In this document: positions 3,478 to 16,126 of the stretch, piece after piece
How the letters are laid out: every line of letters starts with the position of its first letter
Position numbering within the stretch: position 1 is the first letter of the stretch
NCBI RefSeq assembly: GCF_003788635.1
Contig: NZ_AYKH01000041.1
Span: 62,001 to 126,000 of the forward strand
DNA: 64,000 nucleotides
Reading direction: 5' to 3'
Source of the DNA: Salinisphaera orenii subsp. orenii MK-B5
Lineage (GTDB): Bacteria > Pseudomonadota > Gammaproteobacteria > Nevskiales > Salinisphaeraceae
Notes under the pieces: model-generated
Database searches by the model: none
Seen by the model: only the letters and a program-made list of their open reading frames with translations
Told to the model about the DNA's origin: nothing
Made by a program: the position numbers and the translations under genes

Positions 3478-4423
3478 GAAAAGCAATCTGGATCTCAACG
3501 CGTTGCGGACGTTCCGTCTGGTCGTGGATACGGGCGGTTTCACCGCCGCCGCGCATCGCAGCCATCGGGCGGTGTCCTCGGTGTCGCGACAGATTGCGGC
3601 ACTCGAGCGCAGTCTGGGCCAGACGCTGTTTCACCGGCACACGCGGGCCGTAGCGCTCACTGAAGCGGGCGCGCGGTATATCGAGGCGATCCGCCCGCTG
3701 CTCGCGGACCTCGATCAGGCGACGGATGCGGTGCGGGCCGCGCATGACGAACCGACGGGGATGCTGGTCATCAATGCCCCGGTCGCCTTTGGCGAGCGCC
3801 AGGTCGTGCCGCTCGTTCGGGCCTTTTCACAGCGATACCCGAACATCAGGACCGAACTGCGGCTGACAGACCACATCGTCGATCCGGTGTACAGCGCGAG
3901 CGACGTGACCTTCCGCGTCGGCCCGCTGACGGCGTCGAACCTGGTGGCCCGCACCCTGGCGCCCATGCGCTATGTGGTCGCTGCCGCCCCCGATTATCTG
4001 CGCCGTTGCGGGTGGCCCGATACGCCGCAGGCGCTGCGCGGACACGATTGCCTGCGCTACCAGGGCGAGTACGGTCGCCAGCACTGGTACTGGCGCGAGC
4101 ACGGCGCGGAGGCATTCCAGCGCCTGGATGTGGACGGCTCGCTGTACAGCGACGATGCGCCCAGCCTGCGGCACGCCGCGGTGCTGGGTCAGGGCATCGT
4201 CCTGTTTCCGACGTGGCTCATCGATCGGGAACTCCAGAGCGGCAGTCTGGTTTCGCTTCTGGGCGGCTGGCAGTGGGAGGTGGCTCCGGAGGTGCGCTCG
4301 GTGCACATCCTCTACGCCGCCCCGCGTCTCGGTCCGCGCAAGGTCCAGGCGTTTGTGGATCACGTGCTGGAAGCGGTGGGCGATCCGCCGATCTGGGACC
4401 GCACCGCATCGATCAGGCGATAG
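3476..4423 (+). CDS. LysR-family transcriptional regulator
   Basis: A 315-residue LysR protein. The N-terminal winged helix-turn-helix (about residues 1-62) reads LDLNALRTFRLVVDTGGFTA, then SSVSRQIAALERSLGQTLF, the typical recognition helix. The periplasmic-binding-like effector domain follows (about 90-300), with the VAAAPDYL strand of the CrgA/DsdC-like subgroup. The ATG at 3476 gives the canonical N-terminus; an upstream reading from 3323 runs through the operator and the divergent gene's start. No clear ribosome-binding site precedes the ATG, so the mRNA may be leaderless. It most likely regulates itself and the divergent PRISE reductase. The inducer is unknown. Confidence 0.9.
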   Translation: MKSNLDLNALRTFRLVVDTGGFTAAAHRSHRAVSSVSRQIAALERSLGQTLFHRHTRAVALTEAGARYIEAIRPLLADLDQATDAVRAAHDEPTGMLVINAPVAFGERQVVPLVRAFSQRYPNIRTELRLTDHIVDPVYSASDVTFRVGPLTASNLVARTLAPMRYVVAAAPDYLRRCGWPDTPQALRGHDCLRYQGEYGRQHWYWREHGAEAFQRLDVDGSLYSDDAPSLRHAAVLGQGIVLFPTWLIDRELQSGSLVSLLGGWQWEVAPEVRSVHILYAAPRLGPRKVQAFVDHVLEAVGDPPIWDRTASIRR

Positions 4424-8885: not shown

Positions 8886-9531
8886 GGCTGTCTCCCTGAT
8901 TTTTCCGTTGGTTGGGGCAGCGTGGCGAGCCCATGTTGCGACCACGCTACGGCCGCGGCGCGGCCACGCCGGGCCGGGGCACGGCCCAAGTGAAACCACT
9001 TTCGGCTCAGCAACCTGGCGCTGGAGGTCGCGTTATAAGAAGATTCCGTGACATCCGACTGTTTCGGGGTTCAGTTTTGGTAGCAGCGGCCGGTTGCCAC
9101 GAATGCCGGCAGCCGGGCGTCGGCCGCTCGACGCCGATGGAGCGCCGCAGAACCGGCGTCGAGGCGCTCTCCATGTGGTGTCGGTGGGCACGCGGGCCGA
9201 ACGTGCGGTAAGCCGGCGAGGTGGAGTTCGGTACCCGCGGTGCAGCGGACGGTGGGGTTCCGCGTCGCGCCGGCCGAGCGATCGGCGCCGTTGAATCCAA
9301 GCGGGTTGGTCGCGGGTCGGAGCGGCGGATCAGTGACGCTCCGACTCCGACGGCCTGTGCTGCGGGTCTTGCACCGGTCGCGGCTGTGCCCGTAGGGACG
9401 GCTCGCGCTAACATGACGAACGCATTGGCACGGCCGGGACGGCGCATGAAGACATTGTCCACGATCGATCGAGTCGCTCCTGGCGTGGCCCGGAGGAAGC
9501 CGGCCCGCGCCGTATCGGCCGGGTGCGGTCG
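8886..9531. other. Intergenic region with no supported gene
   Basis: These 646 bp separate the divergent nuclease and sugar-kinase genes. Short frames on both strands have biased composition without recognisable domains, and none has a convincing ribosome-binding site. The segment must contain the promoters for both neighbours. I could not identify specific boxes with confidence. Confidence 0.5.
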
Positions 9532-10455
9532 ATGAGCGCCACGTCGGGACTGCGGCTCGGCATCGATCTGGGCGGTACCAAGATCGAGGGCACGGTCATC
9601 GACGCCGCCGATCAGGTGTGCAGCCAGCGACGCGTCGACACGCCGCAGGGCGATTACGACGCCACCGTGGCCGCGGTGGTCGATCTGGTGCAGGCGCTGG
9701 AACAGGATGTCGCGGTCACCGGTCTGCCCGTCGGCATCGGCACGCCGGGCAGCGTCGACCCGCGTTCCGGGCTGCTGCGCAACGCCAATTCCCAGTGTCT
9801 GAACGGCCGTCCGCTGGCGGTGGATCTGCAGAGCGCGATCGGGCGCGAGCTGCGCATCGCGAACGACGCCGACTGTCTGGCGCTGTCCGAGGCTCTCGAC
9901 GGCGCCGGAGCCGGATACGCCAGCGTCTTCGGCGTGATCATGGGGACCGGCGTCGGCGGTGGCGTGGTCATCGACGGTCGCCTGCTGACCGGCTGCAACG
10001 GCGTGGCGGGCGAGTGGGGGCACATCCCGCTGCCCTGGGCGCGGGCCGCTGAGGTCCGCAGTGCGCCGCGCTGCTGGTGCGGCATGGACAGCTGTCTGGA
10101 GACCTGGCTGTCGGGGCCGGCGATGACGGCCGACCACATGCGTCGCGGCGGCCACGAACTGAGCGCGCACGAGATCGTCGAGCGGGCCGAAGCCGGCGAG
10201 CGGCTGGCCGGCGCCACGCTCAAGGCCTGGCTCGAGCGGGTCGCGCGGGCGCTGGCCATGGTCATCAATCTGCTCGATCCGGATGTGATCGTCATCGGCG
10301 GCGGGCTGTCGCAGATCCGCTGGTTGTACAGCGAGGTGCCCAAGGTCTGGGCGCAGCACGTCTTTGCCGATCAGGTGGATACGCCGCTGTGTCCGGCGCA
10401 GCACGGCGCCGCCTCGGGCGTGCGCGGCGCAGCGCGGCTGTGGCCGGGCGCCTGA
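9532..10455 (+). CDS. ROK-family sugar kinase (fructokinase/NagK-like)
   Basis: A 307-residue ROK kinase that phosphorylates a hexose with ATP. The N-terminal phosphate loop GIDLGGTKIEG is at residues 8-18. The ROK zinc-binding signature is present as CWCGMDSCLETW, with the preceding GEWGHIPL metal/sugar motif, and a glycine-rich MGTGVGGGVV loop follows NDADCLALSE. The C-terminal DPDVIVIGGGLS adenosine motif is intact. This pattern is closest to proteobacterial fructokinase Mak and N-acetylglucosamine kinase NagK, and substrate choice cannot be made from motifs alone. ATG 9532 was preferred over an in-frame GTG at 9523. It stands alone, without a transporter or catabolic partner. Confidence 0.88.
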   Translation: MSATSGLRLGIDLGGTKIEGTVIDAADQVCSQRRVDTPQGDYDATVAAVVDLVQALEQDVAVTGLPVGIGTPGSVDPRSGLLRNANSQCLNGRPLAVDLQSAIGRELRIANDADCLALSEALDGAGAGYASVFGVIMGTGVGGGVVIDGRLLTGCNGVAGEWGHIPLPWARAAEVRSAPRCWCGMDSCLETWLSGPAMTADHMRRGGHELSAHEIVERAEAGERLAGATLKAWLERVARALAMVINLLDPDVIVIGGGLSQIRWLYSEVPKVWAQHVFADQVDTPLCPAQHGAASGVRGAARLWPGA

Positions 10456-10642: not shown

Positions 10643-11869
10643 ATGAGCGAGAAGGATCCGGACAAGGGCTATATCGCCCTGCTGGGCTGGTCTCTCGGCG
10701 CCATCGAGGCCGCCGAGCGTTTCGATCGCCGTTACATCGTCGTCGCGCCCGAGTGGGCCGAGGACTACTGCAAGCAGCACGATATCCCCTACATGGCGTG
10801 GAACTTCGAGCGGTTGAACGACCGTTCGCTGGAGATTGCCGAAAAACTGCGGGACGAAGGCGTCGATGCCGCCGTGCCGCTGTTCGAGGAGGTCGTCGAA
10901 TGGGCCGGCGCGATCAACGCCGTGCTCATGGGCAACCCGCGCCTGCACGGCCAGGCCGTGCTGTTCCGCGACAAGGCGTTGATGAAGCGCCGCGCCCAGC
11001 TCGGCGGCATTCGCGTGGGCATCTTCGAGGAAGCCCACGAGAAGGACGACGTCTATCGTTTCTTCAAGCGCGTCAACCAGACGCTGCTCAAGCTCGACGG
11101 CGACGTCGACGATCCGATCCACCTCAAGGCCTTCGACAAGGCGGGTTGTCTCGGTCATCGGATGATCCGGACCGCCGAGGAGATCGAGCAGATCCCGGAG
11201 GCCGAGTATCCGCTGCTCATGGAAAGCCATCTCGACGGCTGGGAGTTCGCGGTCGAGGCCTGGATCTGGAACGGCGAGATCCAGTTCCTCAACATCTCCG
11301 AATACGTCACGCTCGGCTATTCGGTTTTCGTGCCGGCGACCCCCGAGCTGGAATCCTGGCGGGCCCTGATCACCAAGCAGATCGAACTGCTGATCGAGGC
11401 CTTCGACATCAAGTTCGGCCAGATCCATCCCGAGTACTTCGTGACCTCCGACGGCACCATGTACTTCGGCGAGGTCGCCTATCGGCCGCCGGGCTTCAAG
11501 GCCTTTGAGCTGATCGAGCGCGCCTACGGCTTCAACGCCTATCAGGCCTCGATGCTGGTGTTCGATCCCAAGACCACCGAGGACGAGGTGCGCAACTTCT
11601 TCCCCGAGCCGGTTACGGGGGCGAAGGGCTATGCCGGCTGCTTCGGCGTCTATCCGCGCAAGCGCGTGGTCAGCAAGCTCGCGATTCCCGAAGAGGTCGA
11701 GGAGCACGAGTACTTCGACTTCCACGAGTTGACGGAACCCCTGCAGGAGACCGTGACCAAGCGCAATGCCTTCGGCACCCACTGGGGCCTGATCTTCTAT
11801 TTCGGCGACAACGCCCACCGCATGCGCGACTGGCTCAAGCGCAACGAGGAGCTGGACTTCTACCTCTGA
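10643..11869 (+). CDS. Orphan ATP-grasp-fold protein
   Basis: A 408-residue protein with the overall plan of an ATP-grasp ligase. An N-terminal pre-ATP-grasp Rossmann-like part (GYIALLGWSLGAIEAAERF to about residue 90) is followed by an ATP-grasp core with LFRDKALMKRRAQLGG, LLKLDGD, LLMESHLDGWEFAVEAW and the metal-binding IHPEYFVTSDGTMYFGEVAYRPPG region. Such enzymes join a carboxylate to an amine or thiol through an acyl-phosphate. No carrier, peptide substrate or amidotransferase gene is nearby, and it appears monocistronic. A GGAAAG ribosome-binding site precedes the ATG. It differs from biotin carboxylase, D-Ala ligase and PurK in its motifs, so its substrate is unknown. Confidence 0.75.
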   Translation: MSEKDPDKGYIALLGWSLGAIEAAERFDRRYIVVAPEWAEDYCKQHDIPYMAWNFERLNDRSLEIAEKLRDEGVDAAVPLFEEVVEWAGAINAVLMGNPRLHGQAVLFRDKALMKRRAQLGGIRVGIFEEAHEKDDVYRFFKRVNQTLLKLDGDVDDPIHLKAFDKAGCLGHRMIRTAEEIEQIPEAEYPLLMESHLDGWEFAVEAWIWNGEIQFLNISEYVTLGYSVFVPATPELESWRALITKQIELLIEAFDIKFGQIHPEYFVTSDGTMYFGEVAYRPPGFKAFELIERAYGFNAYQASMLVFDPKTTEDEVRNFFPEPVTGAKGYAGCFGVYPRKRVVSKLAIPEEVEEHEYFDFHELTEPLQETVTKRNAFGTHWGLIFYFGDNAHRMRDWLKRNEELDFYL

Positions 11870-11891
11870 TCGGCGGCCACCCCGATAGCGA

Positions 11892-11927
11892 AACCCCGCT
11901 CCGGCTTCGGCCGGGCGGGGTTTTTTT
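11892..11927 (+). terminator. Strong Rho-independent terminator between convergent genes
   Basis: CCCCG plus TCCGGC pairs with GCCGGG plus CGGGG across a TTCG tetraloop, with one bulged C, and is followed by seven T residues. It ends transcription of the ATP-grasp gene. The AAA on the other side means it may also work, more weakly, for the minus-strand deacetylase operon that ends at 11940. Confidence 0.92.
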
Positions 11928-11939
11928 GTGGCGCGAGAA

Positions 11940-13064
11940 TCAGCGCGCGAGCGCGGCCAGGTTGTCGGCGTGGTACGCCGCGGCTTCGGTCACGGCGGCG
12001 CGGCCCGGATCGTTTGCAAGCACGTTGACCGCGGCGACAGGCGCGCTGCCGGCCAGGGCGCCGACGAGGGCATGGGTGCTGTCCGCGAGGGCCTGGGCGT
12101 TGTAGCCGCCTTCCAACACACAGACGAGCCGGCCCCCGCACAGCGAATCCGCCAGCGCGGCCATCTGCTGGGCGAGCACCGCATAGCCGGTGTCGTCCAT
12201 CGCACAGGTCATATCCAGGTAGTGGCAGTCGAAACCGGCGGAGACCAGAATCAGGTCCGGGCGAAAAGCCTGGGCTGCGGGGTGGACGATCTGTTCGAAT
12301 ACGTCGATCAGCGTCGCGTTGCCGAAGCCCGGCGGCAGCGGCACATTGAGGTGGTAGCCGGTGGCGTCGCCGGCGCCGGTCTCCTCCAGGTGCCCGGTGC
12401 CCGGGTAGAAGGGCGCGGCGCAATGACTGTCGATCACCAGCACGCCGGGATCATCGTAGAAGATGTCCTGGGTGCCGTTGCCGTGGTGCATGTCCCAATC
12501 CCAGATCAGCACGCGCTCGTAGCCGAGCGCGGCGCGGGCATGCGCGGCGGTCACCGCGACGTTGTTGTACAGGCAAAAGCCCATCGCCTGGTCGGCCGGG
12601 GCGTGATGGCCCGGCGGACGAACGATGCAGAAGGCACGCTCTGCCTCGCCGCGGGCAATGGCTTCCAGAGCGCTGACGCCGGCACCGGCGGCCAGACGCG
12701 CCGCGGCGACACTGAACGGCGATACGGCGGTCGTGTCCTTGGCCAGCCAGCCGGATTCGCCTTCCAGACCTTCGATATAGGCGACATGCTGTGCGGTGTG
12801 CGCGCGCTCGAGCTCGGTGGGCGTGGCCGGCAGGGGCAGCGCCCAGCGGACGTTGTCCACCGCGGCCTTGAGCAGGCGATCGACGATCGCGGTCAGGCGT
12901 TCTGGGCGCTCCGGATGCGCATAGGACTCGAGCTGGGCGTCCGGGTACTGGATCGCGATCATCGCCTTGACCGCATCCGTCCACTCCGGATGCTCGGGGT
13001 CCCAGCCGTGTGGATTGTGCCCGAGCATGGCGTAGTCGTAATAGATCAGCAGCGGGTTGTTCAT
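11940..13064 (-). CDS. HDAC-fold zinc deacetylase (AcuC/HDAH class)
   Basis: A 374-residue member of the arginase/deacetylase superfamily. The conserved active-site parts are present: RPPGHHA with the tandem His pair (153-154), DWDMHHGNGTQ with zinc ligands Asp191 and His193, AGFDCH with the third ligand Asp279, and the C-terminal LEGGYN that carries the catalytic Tyr. Bacterial members deacetylate proteins, acetylpolyamines or other small amides. The N-terminus has an extra segment (HNPHGWDPEHPEW) before the usual HPERPERL. Its ATG overlaps the stop codon of the upstream 674-residue gene by 4 bp (ATGA), so the two proteins are made together. The substrate is unknown, but the partner suggests a joint protein-processing role. 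Confidence 0.93.
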   Translation of the reverse strand: MNNPLLIYYDYAMLGHNPHGWDPEHPEWTDAVKAMIAIQYPDAQLESYAHPERPERLTAIVDRLLKAAVDNVRWALPLPATPTELERAHTAQHVAYIEGLEGESGWLAKDTTAVSPFSVAAARLAAGAGVSALEAIARGEAERAFCIVRPPGHHAPADQAMGFCLYNNVAVTAAHARAALGYERVLIWDWDMHHGNGTQDIFYDDPGVLVIDSHCAAPFYPGTGHLEETGAGDATGYHLNVPLPPGFGNATLIDVFEQIVHPAAQAFRPDLILVSAGFDCHYLDMTCAMDDTGYAVLAQQMAALADSLCGGRLVCVLEGGYNAQALADSTHALVGALAGSAPVAAVNVLANDPGRAAVTEAAAYHADNLAALAR

Positions 13065-15085
13065 GCCTTGTCACCGGCGGCGTCGATGTCCACAGGTTGC
13101 TCGTCGTTCCAGGGCATGTCGGCGGCCCAGCTGTCGGCGATCCGCCGGCGCACGCGCGCCACGGCGTCCGCGGGTATCCGCGCCGGGTCGCCGGTCTCGC
13201 GTGTCTTGTAGTGAAAGACATAGACGCGCGCCAGGAACTGCTCGAAGGGCAGTGAGGACTCGCCTTCCAGTTCGCCGTGATCGTGGGTCGAGGTGACGAT
13301 ACCTTGTCCCCAGTTCTGCTCCTTGTCGCGATTCGGGTTGAAGAAGTAGACGCGCCATTCCCCGGCCGGATCGAAGGCCACGCGCTGGATCGATATCGCG
13401 TGCCAGCCCACCAGCGCCCCCTGATGGTTCGTCGTGGCGATGCCGCAGGGCTGGGCATAGACCAGATCCCGACCGCCGTTGTAGAGCGGATGATAGGCGG
13501 CGTGGAAATCGCGGATGAAATCGTCGCAGCGCGTCACCGTGCCGGTGGCCGTGTCGATCAGCTCGCCGAAGCCGCGATGCACCCACCAGCCGTGCAGCTC
13601 CGGGTTGACCCAGCGGTGACCGTCGCCGATGCGCCCGATCGTGTGGCGGCTCATCTCCATGTAGATGCGGTCGAGGTGCGGTGTCAGCAGCAGCGAGACC
13701 GGATCGAGTTCGGTATGCAGCTCCGTCGCCAGACCGAAGGTCAGCTCGCTGGCGCGGATGTTGAGGCCCTCGAACTGCAGGACGAGATCGTTCTCGCGGG
13801 CGGCGTAGGCGATCAGTTCGAGCAGATAACCGACATCGTTCTGGGCCCAAAGGCTGATCGCCCGGGCCGACTGGCATGTGGGGTTGAGCCCCTGATCCAC
13901 GCCGCGCGGCTGGCCGAGCACCGACAGCGTGCCGGCGAGCAGGAGTACGTTGGCGTCCGGCGGATCCGTCCATTCGCTGGCCTCGCGCAGCGTGGCCGCC
14001 ACCTCCGGATTGATCGCCAGCACCATCAGCCGGCGCAGGCCCGGCAGCACCGGCCGGATGAAGGTCATGCCCTGTTCCAGCAGCTTCGACAGACCGTAGA
14101 TCGAGCGCGCGGTCTCGCGTCGGATCGCGAACTGGATCAGCTCCGAGATCAGCGTCTGATGGGCACCCAGACTCACCTTGCCGACGGCGTTGAGGGCGAG
14201 CGCCGGACCGACCAGCTCCGGCGCCCGGTCCACCAGATGGCACAGCAGATCGGCGTGCTGTGCGGACACCAGCCCGGTGCGCGCCATGGCATCGCCGAAG
14301 GTCTGGGCCTCCTCGGCGAGCGCGTTGGTATCCAGCGCGGCGAGCGCGGCGACATAGTCGTCGCGGCTGCCCGCCCGCGACAGACGGCTCGGCCCCTTCA
14401 GCGCGTGGATCCACGCCCGGGCCCGGGTGGCCGCGGCGTCGTCCTCGGGCAGCTCTGCGGTGGCCCGGTCGGCCGCGCGCAGCAGGGCCTCCGCCCGCTG
14501 GATCATGATCGGGCGCTGGAGCAGAACGCGCTCGACCTCGATGACCAGCGCGTTGAGGATCGTGGCCGCGCCGATGCGCTCGAGAATGAATTCGAACAGC
14601 GTGCGCACGCGCTCGCCGATCGCCGGATCCGCCTCGCGGGTTTCCTCCGTGGCGACCGGGAACAGCAGATCGAGGTTCGCGGCCAGCACCTGCTCGAGGA
14701 AACTGCGCGCACCGGCGGCATCCATCGACGCACTGCGGCATTCGCCCTGGGCGATCGCCAGCAGCCGCAGTTCGCTCAGACACTCCAGCGTGGCGTTGGC
14801 GCCGCCGGCGCGCAGCGTGCTGCCGGCCAGGCCCGGCTGGAGATCGGCCGGGTCGTACCAGTCACCGCCGAGGAACACCCCGGCGGCGTCGAAACGGCCG
14901 GCGTGAGCGTACAGCGCGGCGATGCCCGCGGGATCGCTCAGCAGCTTCCGCGCGCGGGCCAGCAGCTGGGACTGATGGTTGAACTTGGAGAAACGGGGCG
15001 CCGTCTCGAGGCGCTCGAGCGTCGCTTCGAAATCCTCGGTCAGTCTCGCGAACCGCGGCGTCTGTGAAGGGGTGGGCTCACCCAA
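13061..15085 (-). CDS. Large uncharacterised protein with papain-like cysteine-peptidase motifs
   Basis: A 674-residue cytoplasmic protein (no signal peptide or membrane helix) that I do not recognise as a named family. Residues 1-390 are helical and leucine-rich. Residues 395-630 carry a layout like a C1/C39-type cysteine peptidase. Gln398 lies six residues before Cys404 in QGLNPTCQSARAISLW, the spacing of papain Gln19-Cys25. Then come the GWHAISI strand with His562 and VYFFNPN with Asn583, followed by NWG. These are inferred oxyanion-hole and catalytic residues, not proven ones. The gene overlaps the downstream deacetylase by ATGA. It may be a peptidase, an amide-transferring enzyme or an inactive relative. 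Confidence 0.6.
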   Translation of the reverse strand: MGEPTPSQTPRFARLTEDFEATLERLETAPRFSKFNHQSQLLARARKLLSDPAGIAALYAHAGRFDAAGVFLGGDWYDPADLQPGLAGSTLRAGGANATLECLSELRLLAIAQGECRSASMDAAGARSFLEQVLAANLDLLFPVATEETREADPAIGERVRTLFEFILERIGAATILNALVIEVERVLLQRPIMIQRAEALLRAADRATAELPEDDAAATRARAWIHALKGPSRLSRAGSRDDYVAALAALDTNALAEEAQTFGDAMARTGLVSAQHADLLCHLVDRAPELVGPALALNAVGKVSLGAHQTLISELIQFAIRRETARSIYGLSKLLEQGMTFIRPVLPGLRRLMVLAINPEVAATLREASEWTDPPDANVLLLAGTLSVLGQPRGVDQGLNPTCQSARAISLWAQNDVGYLLELIAYAARENDLVLQFEGLNIRASELTFGLATELHTELDPVSLLLTPHLDRIYMEMSRHTIGRIGDGHRWVNPELHGWWVHRGFGELIDTATGTVTRCDDFIRDFHAAYHPLYNGGRDLVYAQPCGIATTNHQGALVGWHAISIQRVAFDPAGEWRVYFFNPNRDKEQNWGQGIVTSTHDHGELEGESSLPFEQFLARVYVFHYKTRETGDPARIPADAVARVRRRIADSWAADMPWNDEQPVDIDAAGDKA

Positions 15086-15281
15086 GTACGACCTCCGGAG
15101 CCCGGCCTGCGCGTGCGCGGCGTGATGTCCGCACGCCGGTCATCGCACCGCGGTGTACCGTTCGGCACAGTCCGGCAAATGGGTTTCGGCGACATTAACA
15201 CAACGGCTGCGTGGCCACGGCACCGTGCGCTGCCGGCTTGCGTCGACGCTGAGCCGCCTGCGGCCCCGGCATCCACCGGCG

Positions 15282-15770
15282 CTACGCCGGGGCTCGATCC
15301 ATCCAGCGCAGCCAGCGTCGGATCAGGCGGACGCTCAGCCAGAGGGTGACGATCAGCCAGCCGGCGATGGCGACGAAGGCGGCCAGCATGAGGGTGCCGA
15401 TGCCCAGTTCCGGCCAGGCGGCGGCCAGCGTCTCCATCGGGTGCGGGGCGTAGGCCATCGTGTTGAGCACGGTCATGGTGGTGTCGAGCAGTGTCGGGAT
15501 CGCCAGCAGCGGGGCGATCAGCACCAGCAGCAGGGTGGCGGCGGACCACAGGTGATGGCGCATCAGCCAGCGGTGGTGGCCGGCGATCACCGGATCGGCG
15601 CCGCCGGTGGCCAGGCCGTGGGGGATGGCCAGCACGGCGATGACGGGTATGAGCACCACGCCGACCCCGACCCAGAGGGCGGCGAGCACGGCGGCGGCGG
15701 TGAGGTAGCCCAAGGTCACACCGGCGCCGCCGGCGCCGGCGGCCGGCCGCGGATGGTCGATATCGTTCAT
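15282..15770 (-). CDS. Small integral membrane protein, second of a coupled pair
   Basis: A 162-residue protein with about four transmembrane helices (residues 20-50, 72-95, 120-145 and a partial C-terminal one) and a basic tail. No named family is recognised. Between helices it carries IAGHHRWLMRHHLW, nearly the same HHRWLMR motif found in the protein encoded immediately upstream. The ATG at 15770 overlaps that gene's stop (ATGA). The shared motif and coupling suggest the two form one membrane complex, possibly a divergent duplication. There is no clue to the function. Confidence 0.7.
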   Translation of the reverse strand: MNDIDHPRPAAGAGGAGVTLGYLTAAAVLAALWVGVGVVLIPVIAVLAIPHGLATGGADPVIAGHHRWLMRHHLWSAATLLLVLIAPLLAIPTLLDTTMTVLNTMAYAPHPMETLAAAWPELGIGTLMLAAFVAIAGWLIVTLWLSVRLIRRWLRWMDRAPA

Positions 15771-16126
15771 GGCGCCGGCATGGCCCGGTGTTCGGCGAAG
15801 GCGAGCACGCCGCGCACGATGCGGTAGACGAACCAGATCCAGAGCACGACATAGCCGACCAGGCCGATGCCGACGCCGGCCAGCACGAGGCAGACCAGCG
15901 ACCAGAGCACCCCGAACCAGAAGGTGCGCATCAGCCAGCGGTGGTGCGTCCAGGCCACGCCGTCGCGCCGGTCGCCGATCTTGACGTGATTGATGATCAC
16001 GCCCGCGATCGCGGTGACGCCGGCGAAGAACGCCAGACCGTAGAGAACGTAGGTCACCAGCAGCACGTTGCGCTCGATCTCGCTGCGCGTGGCCGGCGTG
16101 TTGTCGGGGTGATGGGCCATGGTCAT
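15767..16126 (-). CDS. Small integral membrane protein, first of a coupled pair
   Basis: A 119-residue protein with three predicted transmembrane helices (LLVTYVLYGLAFFAGVTAIAGVII, FWFGVLWSLVCLVLAGVGIGLVG and a following segment ending VYRIVRGVLAF). The central loop VAWTHHRWLMR recurs in its downstream partner. The general plan resembles DUF4870-type small membrane proteins, which have no known activity. The start could be 16126 or the ATG two codons later; neither has a strong ribosome-binding site. It is divergent from the GST gene 67 bp away. Confidence 0.7.
   Translation of the reverse strand: MTMAHHPDNTPATRSEIERNVLLVTYVLYGLAFFAGVTAIAGVIINHVKIGDRRDGVAWTHHRWLMRTFWFGVLWSLVCLVLAGVGIGLVGYVVLWIWFVYRIVRGVLAFAEHRAMPAP

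Follow-up and report, generated by a model that had tools for sequence, protein, structure and literature searches.

A predicted calpain-like cysteine enzyme with a constant ATP-grasp partner and an accessory deacetylase in Salinisphaera orenii and other bacteria

Organization of the locus

We have analyzed a 64,000-nucleotide stretch of the Salinisphaera orenii subsp. orenii MK-B5 genome (contig NZ_AYKH01000041.1, positions 62,001 to 126,000; referred to here as the window), in which the gene for a 674-residue protein, CYS, lies next to genes for a zinc deacetylase, HDAC, and an ATP-grasp enzyme, ATPG. CYS occupies positions 13061–15085 on the minus strand, with a TTG start at 15085 and a TGA stop at 13063–13061, and a ribosome-binding site, GGAGG, can be read from the sequence six bases 5' of the start codon (15092–15096, minus strand). 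HDAC (11940–13064, minus strand) codes for a 374-residue class II-type enzyme belonging to a subfamily designated here as type A. Its ATG (13064–13062) overlaps the CYS stop codon in an ATGA sequence at 13061–13064 on the minus strand, a junction that makes translational coupling of the two genes likely. ATPG, a 408-residue protein recognized by profile matches and conserved residues, is encoded convergently at 10643–11869 on the plus strand; between it and HDAC there is an inverted repeat (11891–11927, assigned to neither strand) with A and T runs on either side, which looks like a two-way terminator.

The original prediction, made from the letters of this stretch, treated the coupled CYS and HDAC genes as a two-enzyme unit of deacetylase and peptidase. 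The reading frames, the ATGA overlap and the residue positions that it reported were confirmed in the sequence. The two-enzyme reading is not supported as stated: the constant partner of CYS is the ATP-grasp enzyme, with HDAC an accessory found here in gamma- and betaproteobacterial genomes only; ATPG, the neighbor that matters most, lay outside its claims.

CYS is predicted to have a calpain-like fold

CYS was described at the outset as having no recognized family, and it is indeed unnamed by the four libraries searched, with no match in Pfam or NCBIfam at an E value of 1 and none in PADLOC or PHROGs at 0.01; a search of PDB sequences gave nothing beyond chance. Residues Gln398, Cys404, His562 and Asn583 are invariant in all 27 rows of alignment A1 (27 sequences) and in all 134 rows of a larger alignment (125 distinct; the window gene is included more than once, and two of the 135 fetched matches, 481 and 201 residues long, were omitted as fragments). 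Because they are invariant in both alignments these four positions do not constitute a chance motif, and the constancy of Cys404 and His562 among homologues, put forward originally as a check, is borne out, for Gln398 and Asn583 as well.

The predicted architecture combines a helical N-terminal half (approximately residues 1–370) with a calpain- or papain-like C-terminal domain (approximately 372–660). A full-length model (pLDDT 84.7, pTM 0.78), helical in its first half, retrieves mostly ARM/HEAT-type and other large helical proteins from the PDB by fold, at low probability, with m-calpain ranking second at a probability of 0.95. Since helical proteins dominated this search, the C-terminal domain was folded alone, from 94 sequences, giving a model with pLDDT 92.3 and pTM 0.89. 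All of its 31 best PDB fold matches are calpain protease cores, the top one being 6bjd (E 3.8e-4, probability 1.00, TM 0.41, 283 columns, approximately 15% identity), and the next places go mainly to staphopain and cathepsin-like chains. In the predicted secondary structure Cys404 opens a helix (404–416), His562 lies within a strand (558–571) and Asn583 comes after a strand (577–582). A helix opened by cysteine, then a strand bearing histidine, then an asparagine after a strand is the papain order.

Fold, residue order and invariance together place CYS in the papain superfamily (clan CA), as a predicted cysteine enzyme with a calpain-like fold, with Cys404, His562 and Asn583 as putative catalytic residues and with Gln398 as the putative oxyanion-hole residue. 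The papain-like assignment of the original prediction stands at the level of the superfamily, and the particular families that it proposed do not. C1 was rejected on the fold search, calpain (C2) being the nearest fold, and neither C39 nor transglutaminase folds are among the best 50 of the 447 fold matches of the C-terminal domain; a transglutaminase-like profile, TGL, gave a single weak match (E 0.23) to one of 94 CYS members. CYS is like the calpain core (MEROPS C2) in its C-terminal fold over most of its length and in having Gln-x5-Cys, His and Asn in order, but differs in its low sequence identity, its long helical N-terminal half and its ATP-grasp partner. Because the peptidase C2 profile (PF00648) matches none of the 94 members at E 0.5, nor the window CYS at E 1, CYS falls outside family C2 by sequence. 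There is no strongly hydrophobic 19-residue segment in CYS, HDAC or ATPG, and CYS is probably cytosolic.

ATPG resembles L-amino-acid ligases

An ATPG profile has four matches in the PDB: the L-amino-acid ligases 4wd3 (E 2.9e-11, over positions 41–401) and BL00235 (3vot; E 6.4e-7), a phosphoribosylglycinamide synthetase and a carbamoylphosphate synthase chain. The Pfam family ATP-grasp_4 is matched by all 34 ATPG members searched at E up to 0.1 (best 2.7e-10), and by the window ATPG at 1.7e-4, which is under the curated cut-off. Lys111, Glu264, Glu277 and Arg281 are invariant in an alignment of 87 rows (83 distinct; seven of 93 matches were omitted as short) and Lys150 is present in 85 of these; the Glu/Glu/Arg residues align with the conserved Glu/Glu/Arg region of 4wd3. 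Profile matches together with conserved metal and ATP residues mark ATPG as a predicted ATP-grasp enzyme whose closest solved relatives are L-amino-acid ligases, and a ligase activity is predicted for it. It differs from those ligases in being distant from them, in falling below the ATP-grasp_4 cut-off and in always accompanying CYS in the three genome samples described below.

CYS and ATPG occur in the same genomes

CYS and strong ATPG matches are found in the same 17 genomes among 61 relatives, the same 11 among 398 Pseudomonadota (members of five families) and the same 22 among 150 genomes of a Bacillota order, the last sample being centered on a genome (G469) chosen because it has CYS. The phylum searches scored the best three to five first-look candidates per genome, and weak ATPG matches were set aside in six of the 398 Pseudomonadota genomes (30–43 bits) and 14 of the 150 Bacillota genomes (69 bits or less). 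Every genome with a strong ATPG match in these samples also has CYS. Fisher values computed for the co-occurrence take no account of common descent.

One pattern scan of genome contigs returned at least 584 confirmed matching stretches of CYS, and the number of genes is below this because two patterns per gene are possible. The 80 best-scoring loci are biased towards relatives of the window and come from Pseudomonadota, Bacillota and Actinomycetota; by record title they represent Gammaproteobacteria (one Azoarcus and one Lysobacterales are included), Bacilli, actinobacteria and two alphaproteobacteria, together with some records whose labels are doubtful, a Phormidium and a Chryseobacterium among them. 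ATPG accompanies CYS at 67 of the 80, on the same strand with ATPG first at 54 loci, in the reverse order at two, convergently at seven and divergently at four, and 12 of the 13 remaining genomes have a strong ATPG match elsewhere. In two genomes, G006 and G016, CYS and ATPG are on separate contigs. ATPG is thus the constant partner of CYS. Long CYS frames at loci L130 and L131 were considered as ATPG-CYS fusions and rejected, their coordinates placing the two genes in different frames.

Two types of CYS, 42–46% alike, are present in 11 of 13 other Salinisphaera genomes; G006 has the second type only, and the window's genome and its sister G012 have the first only. Three genomes of family f18 in the Pseudomonadota sample (G130, G198 and G234) each contain three CYS genes, two or three ATPG genes and one or two type-A HDAC genes, and on contig C11 of G198 a CYS, two ATPG and one type-A HDAC gene lie inside 27 kb.

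A mobile, phage or defence origin for CYS was rejected after viral, phage, plasmid, PADLOC and PHROGs checks. Viral contigs gave 55 pattern matches to CYS with none confirmed, phage records gave none, and a plasmid collection yielded one CYS record, a 1.8-Mb Halomonas replicon; as to anti-phage defence, PADLOC profiles match neither CYS nor HDAC nor ATPG at E 0.01.

Type-A deacetylases track CYS in Pseudomonadota

HDAC matches PF00850 (E 6.3e-90), and His153, His154, Asp189, Asp191, His193, Asp279 and Tyr321, which we take to be the active-site residues of the HDAC family, are invariant in all 51 type-A rows (44 distinct). The profile match, the full zinc site and the catalytic His and Tyr identify HDAC as a predicted member of the histone deacetylase superfamily, and its original description as a fully equipped deacetylase holds. 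HDAC6 comes first in a PDB sequence search only through the sum of its two domains; compared domain by domain, an HDAC-like amidohydrolase outscores it, 224.7 versus 183.5 bits. An HDAC10-like polyamine deacetylase is not supported, since the gatekeeper Glu is absent in type A, the presumed gatekeeper position being Thr286 in the window and Ala, Cys, Thr or Gly in the family.

Among the 61 relatives, full-length type-A matches (E <1e-88) are present in 16 of 17 genomes with CYS and in none of 44 without it, the next match being at 2.4e-60. The 398 Pseudomonadota, searched with a profile, A3, that includes HDACs picked from CYS-positive genomes, gave 12 type-A matches at 532–624 bits in nine genomes, and the next match is at 308 bits; these nine are among the 11 genomes with CYS, and none of the 387 without CYS has one. 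Within family f16 three of the listed CYS-negative genomes, G106, G368 and G414, are without a type-A HDAC, and so is the CYS-positive G455. The 51 type-A rows form one branch of the tree (100/100 support) with three sub-branches, one of the window and G002, a second of a Wenzhouxiangella group, and a third of the rest. This monophyly is partly by construction, because the type-A labels were assigned from scores ahead of the tree, and the gap from 532 to 308 bits is the better evidence. Type A shares PF00850 and all active-site residues with the class II HDAC-like amidohydrolases (HDAH, HDAC6) but is separate from them in the tree and tracks CYS.

HDAC is a newcomer at the window locus. The CYS of G012 is 98% identical, yet there ATPG comes almost directly after the CYS stop and HDAC is missing, and none of the 12 other loci having the window's CYS type and ATPG together (G012 included) has an HDAC between them; the records L009 and L015 stop short of the position in question. 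The closest HDAC relative among the 61 genomes (72–73%) is in G002, at a different place, and G000 has another type-A HDAC on contig C34. The ATGA coupling is therefore local to the window's genome. Of the co-occurrence proposed originally, a real link to the deacetylase survives, type A following CYS in Pseudomonadota and being linked to it in other lineages as well; the ATGA junction is local and most type-A HDAC genes lie away from CYS.

A whole type-A HDAC gene lies beside CYS in five of the 80 best loci. The order ATPG-CYS-HDAC with a TGATG junction is seen at L071, L073, L078 and L087, HDAC is divergent from CYS in an Alcanivorax bin (L110), and the two are convergent in G253. A Wenzhouxiangella bin (L084) has just an N-terminal HDAC remnant, directly after CYS at 3699, so a linked HDAC can be lost. 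Counting the window, there are four arrangements across three type-A sub-branches, and the linkage has probably arisen more than once.

These placements bear on whether HDAC takes part at all, since it might be a bystander, with only ATPG and CYS cooperating and the ATGA junction an accident of gene insertion. The empty position in G012 and the other loci of the same CYS type fits that view, as does the lack of a type-A HDAC in the 150 Bacillota genomes and in six actinobacterial CYS-positive genomes. However, a type-A HDAC was never found without CYS among the 398 Pseudomonadota or the 61 relatives, and links between HDAC and CYS, differing in order and junction, are seen in the Wenzhouxiangella group, G253, the Alcanivorax bin and the window; we regard a bystander role as quite improbable. 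Forty-six CYS-positive genomes could be reached from 47 of the 80 loci, and 21 of them have a type-A HDAC (at least 510 bits), all titled as gamma- or betaproteobacteria. The 25 without one comprise 12 Bacilli, six actinobacteria, two alphaproteobacteria, a cyanobacterial record and four gammaproteobacteria, two of these four having short partial type-A matches of 70 and 22 bits.

A proposed pathway

The distribution of the trio points to a pathway not yet described, in which an acylated peptide or amide would be made, trimmed and broken. We propose, with a probability of roughly 45%, that CYS and ATPG are the core of one cytosolic pathway acting on a small-molecule substrate, and that HDAC is its third enzyme in gammaproteobacteria. 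At the expense of ATP, ATPG would couple an amino acid to another amino acid, a peptide or an amine, and CYS would attack that amide or a similar one through Cys404, His562 and Asn583, by hydrolysis or acyl transfer, such that the two would make and break the same bond. HDAC would deacylate the substrate or product, removing a cap that may be acetyl or another acyl group, and in Bacilli a neighboring GNAT may add such a cap. As substrate we consider a small peptide or amide bearing an acyl group most likely, and it may be an osmotic or stress solute. The HDAC at the window locus would be the second type-A gene of its genome, a recent arrival that became coupled to CYS.

Several observations weigh against this proposal. 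A simple amidase would not be expected to have a helical N-terminal half as large as that of CYS. In a metagenome bin, G478, CYS is present but ATPG was not found; G006 retains the second CYS type only, with ATPG on another contig; and CYS copies exceed ATPG copies, three versus two, in G130 and G234. Type-A HDAC is absent from CYS-positive G455 and G076 (two of the 11 Pseudomonadota) and from G016, and likewise from all 22 CYS-positive Bacillota genomes, the best match in that sample of 150 reaching 298 bits; the majority of type-A HDAC genes are not adjacent to CYS. Many host titles suggest saline or soda habitats, and the solute idea is weak because the hosts, among them Streptomyces, Nocardia and Neobacillus, are not all salt-loving.

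The surroundings of the pair contain further enzymes of acyl chemistry. A GNAT of approximately 190 residues is encoded divergently from ATPG in 18 of the 80 best loci (17 titled Bacilli and one Chryseobacterium; grouped by BLAST clustering, with two members scanned against Pfam), and in G234 a GNAT gene is immediately upstream of a type-A HDAC gene. In Neobacillus a gene of the ArgJ family (PF01960, 3.5e-146; L134:10039-11268) lies between two different CYS copies, and a related gene is likewise between two CYS copies in Ectobacillus (L140). An AAT-family NTN acyltransferase (PF03417; L111:5122-6174) is divergent from ATPG in Pontibacillus, and genes of the same BLAST cluster are beside ATPG at L112 and L123; one ArgJ and one AAT member were scanned, the others being assigned by BLAST cluster. 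The GNAT, ArgJ and AAT neighbors hint at an acyl theme around the pair.

The system might instead be purely biosynthetic, with CYS an acyl- or aminoacyl-transferase like the papain-fold BtrH, the bond made by ATPG left unbroken, and HDAC removing a protecting group near the end. One study places papain-fold transacylases, ATP-grasp ligases, GNATs and NTN acyltransferases together in predicted peptide pathways of like kinds (PMC2922099), and this co-occurrence of enzyme classes is consistent with such a role, as are the AAT-family gene beside ATPG in Pontibacillus and the ArgJ gene between CYS copies in Neobacillus. However, no larger cluster around CYS, ATPG and type-A HDAC is conserved across distant groups in the loci compared, a comparison that covered genes above 70–80 codons and so not small carrier proteins; other recurring neighbors are confined to near relatives (Planococcaceae; Halobacillus) or belong to common families. 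We consider a purely biosynthetic role unlikely.

A second departure from that pathway concerns the substrate, which could be a protein: ATPG would add amino acids or a peptide, CYS would remove them, and HDAC and GNAT would edit acetyl-lysine on that protein. The eukaryotic tubulin code involves a comparable set of enzymes, namely a TTL-type ATP-grasp ligase, a vasohibin-type cysteine protease, HDAC6 and an acetyltransferase. Half of CYS is helical and could be a protein-binding scaffold, its full-length model resembling ARM/HEAT-type proteins at low probability, and a calpain-like fold is typical of protein-cleaving enzymes. Set against this, the genes next to the system offered no candidate for the target, neither RimK nor TTL is among the four PDB matches of the ATPG profile, and HDAC6 owes its place at the head of its list to two summed domains. 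Reversible protein modification is likewise unlikely in our view. Its most specific form, a bacterial write-and-erase system paralleling the tubulin code in which ATPG adds and the helical-scaffold CYS removes a protein mark while HDAC (in gammaproteobacteria) or GNAT (in Bacilli) edits acetylation of the same target, would be a long shot.

All three folds are known, and the combination of an ATP-grasp ligase with a papain-superfamily hydrolase is already known too. In glutathionylspermidine synthetase/amidase, one amide is formed by a ligase and cleaved by an amidase of the papain superfamily, but its ligase and CHAP families are matched by neither CYS nor ATPG. The NAGGN osmolyte pathway, with a GNAT/ATP-grasp synthetase and a peptidase, brings an ATP-grasp enzyme, an acetyl group and a peptidase into one solute pathway; unlike it, the few CYS neighbors scanned include no asparagine-synthetase-like gene, and no fused GNAT/ATP-grasp protein was seen.

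We found no description of the CYS family, the CYS-ATPG pair or the trio among titles and abstracts of the open literature, a 2009 survey of ATP-grasp amidoligase systems lying outside the comparison, and any claim of novelty is limited because that survey might list the CYS-ATPG pair. The CYS family goes unmentioned in the accessible parts of two surveys, one from 2023 on papain-like families (PMC10318531) and one from 2015 on bacterial calpains (PMC4631099). Their matched distribution makes CYS and ATPG, each an unknown by itself, candidates for a pathway that can be tested, the link to the deacetylase would provide a natural setting for one branch of the bacterial HDAC family, and the predicted CYS fold points to a further distant calpain-like family in bacteria.

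Other features of the CYS loci

A library scan of the window's neighboring genes places a ROK-family kinase just upstream of ATPG (9523–10455, plus strand), and a ROK-family kinase is also near ATPG in G012 and at some other loci of the genus. Upstream of CYS are two small membrane proteins of 162 and 119 residues (15282–15770 and 15767–16126, minus strand) whose genes overlap by four bases; among the fetched loci, to which this comparison was confined, one or both recur upstream of CYS at several loci of the same genus. In four gammaproteobacterial bins in which CYS is not beside ATPG, a gene of the TraB/PrgY/gumN family (PF01963) is on the opposite strand near CYS (L113:924-1847, L138:6086-7018, L117 and L118; two members scanned).

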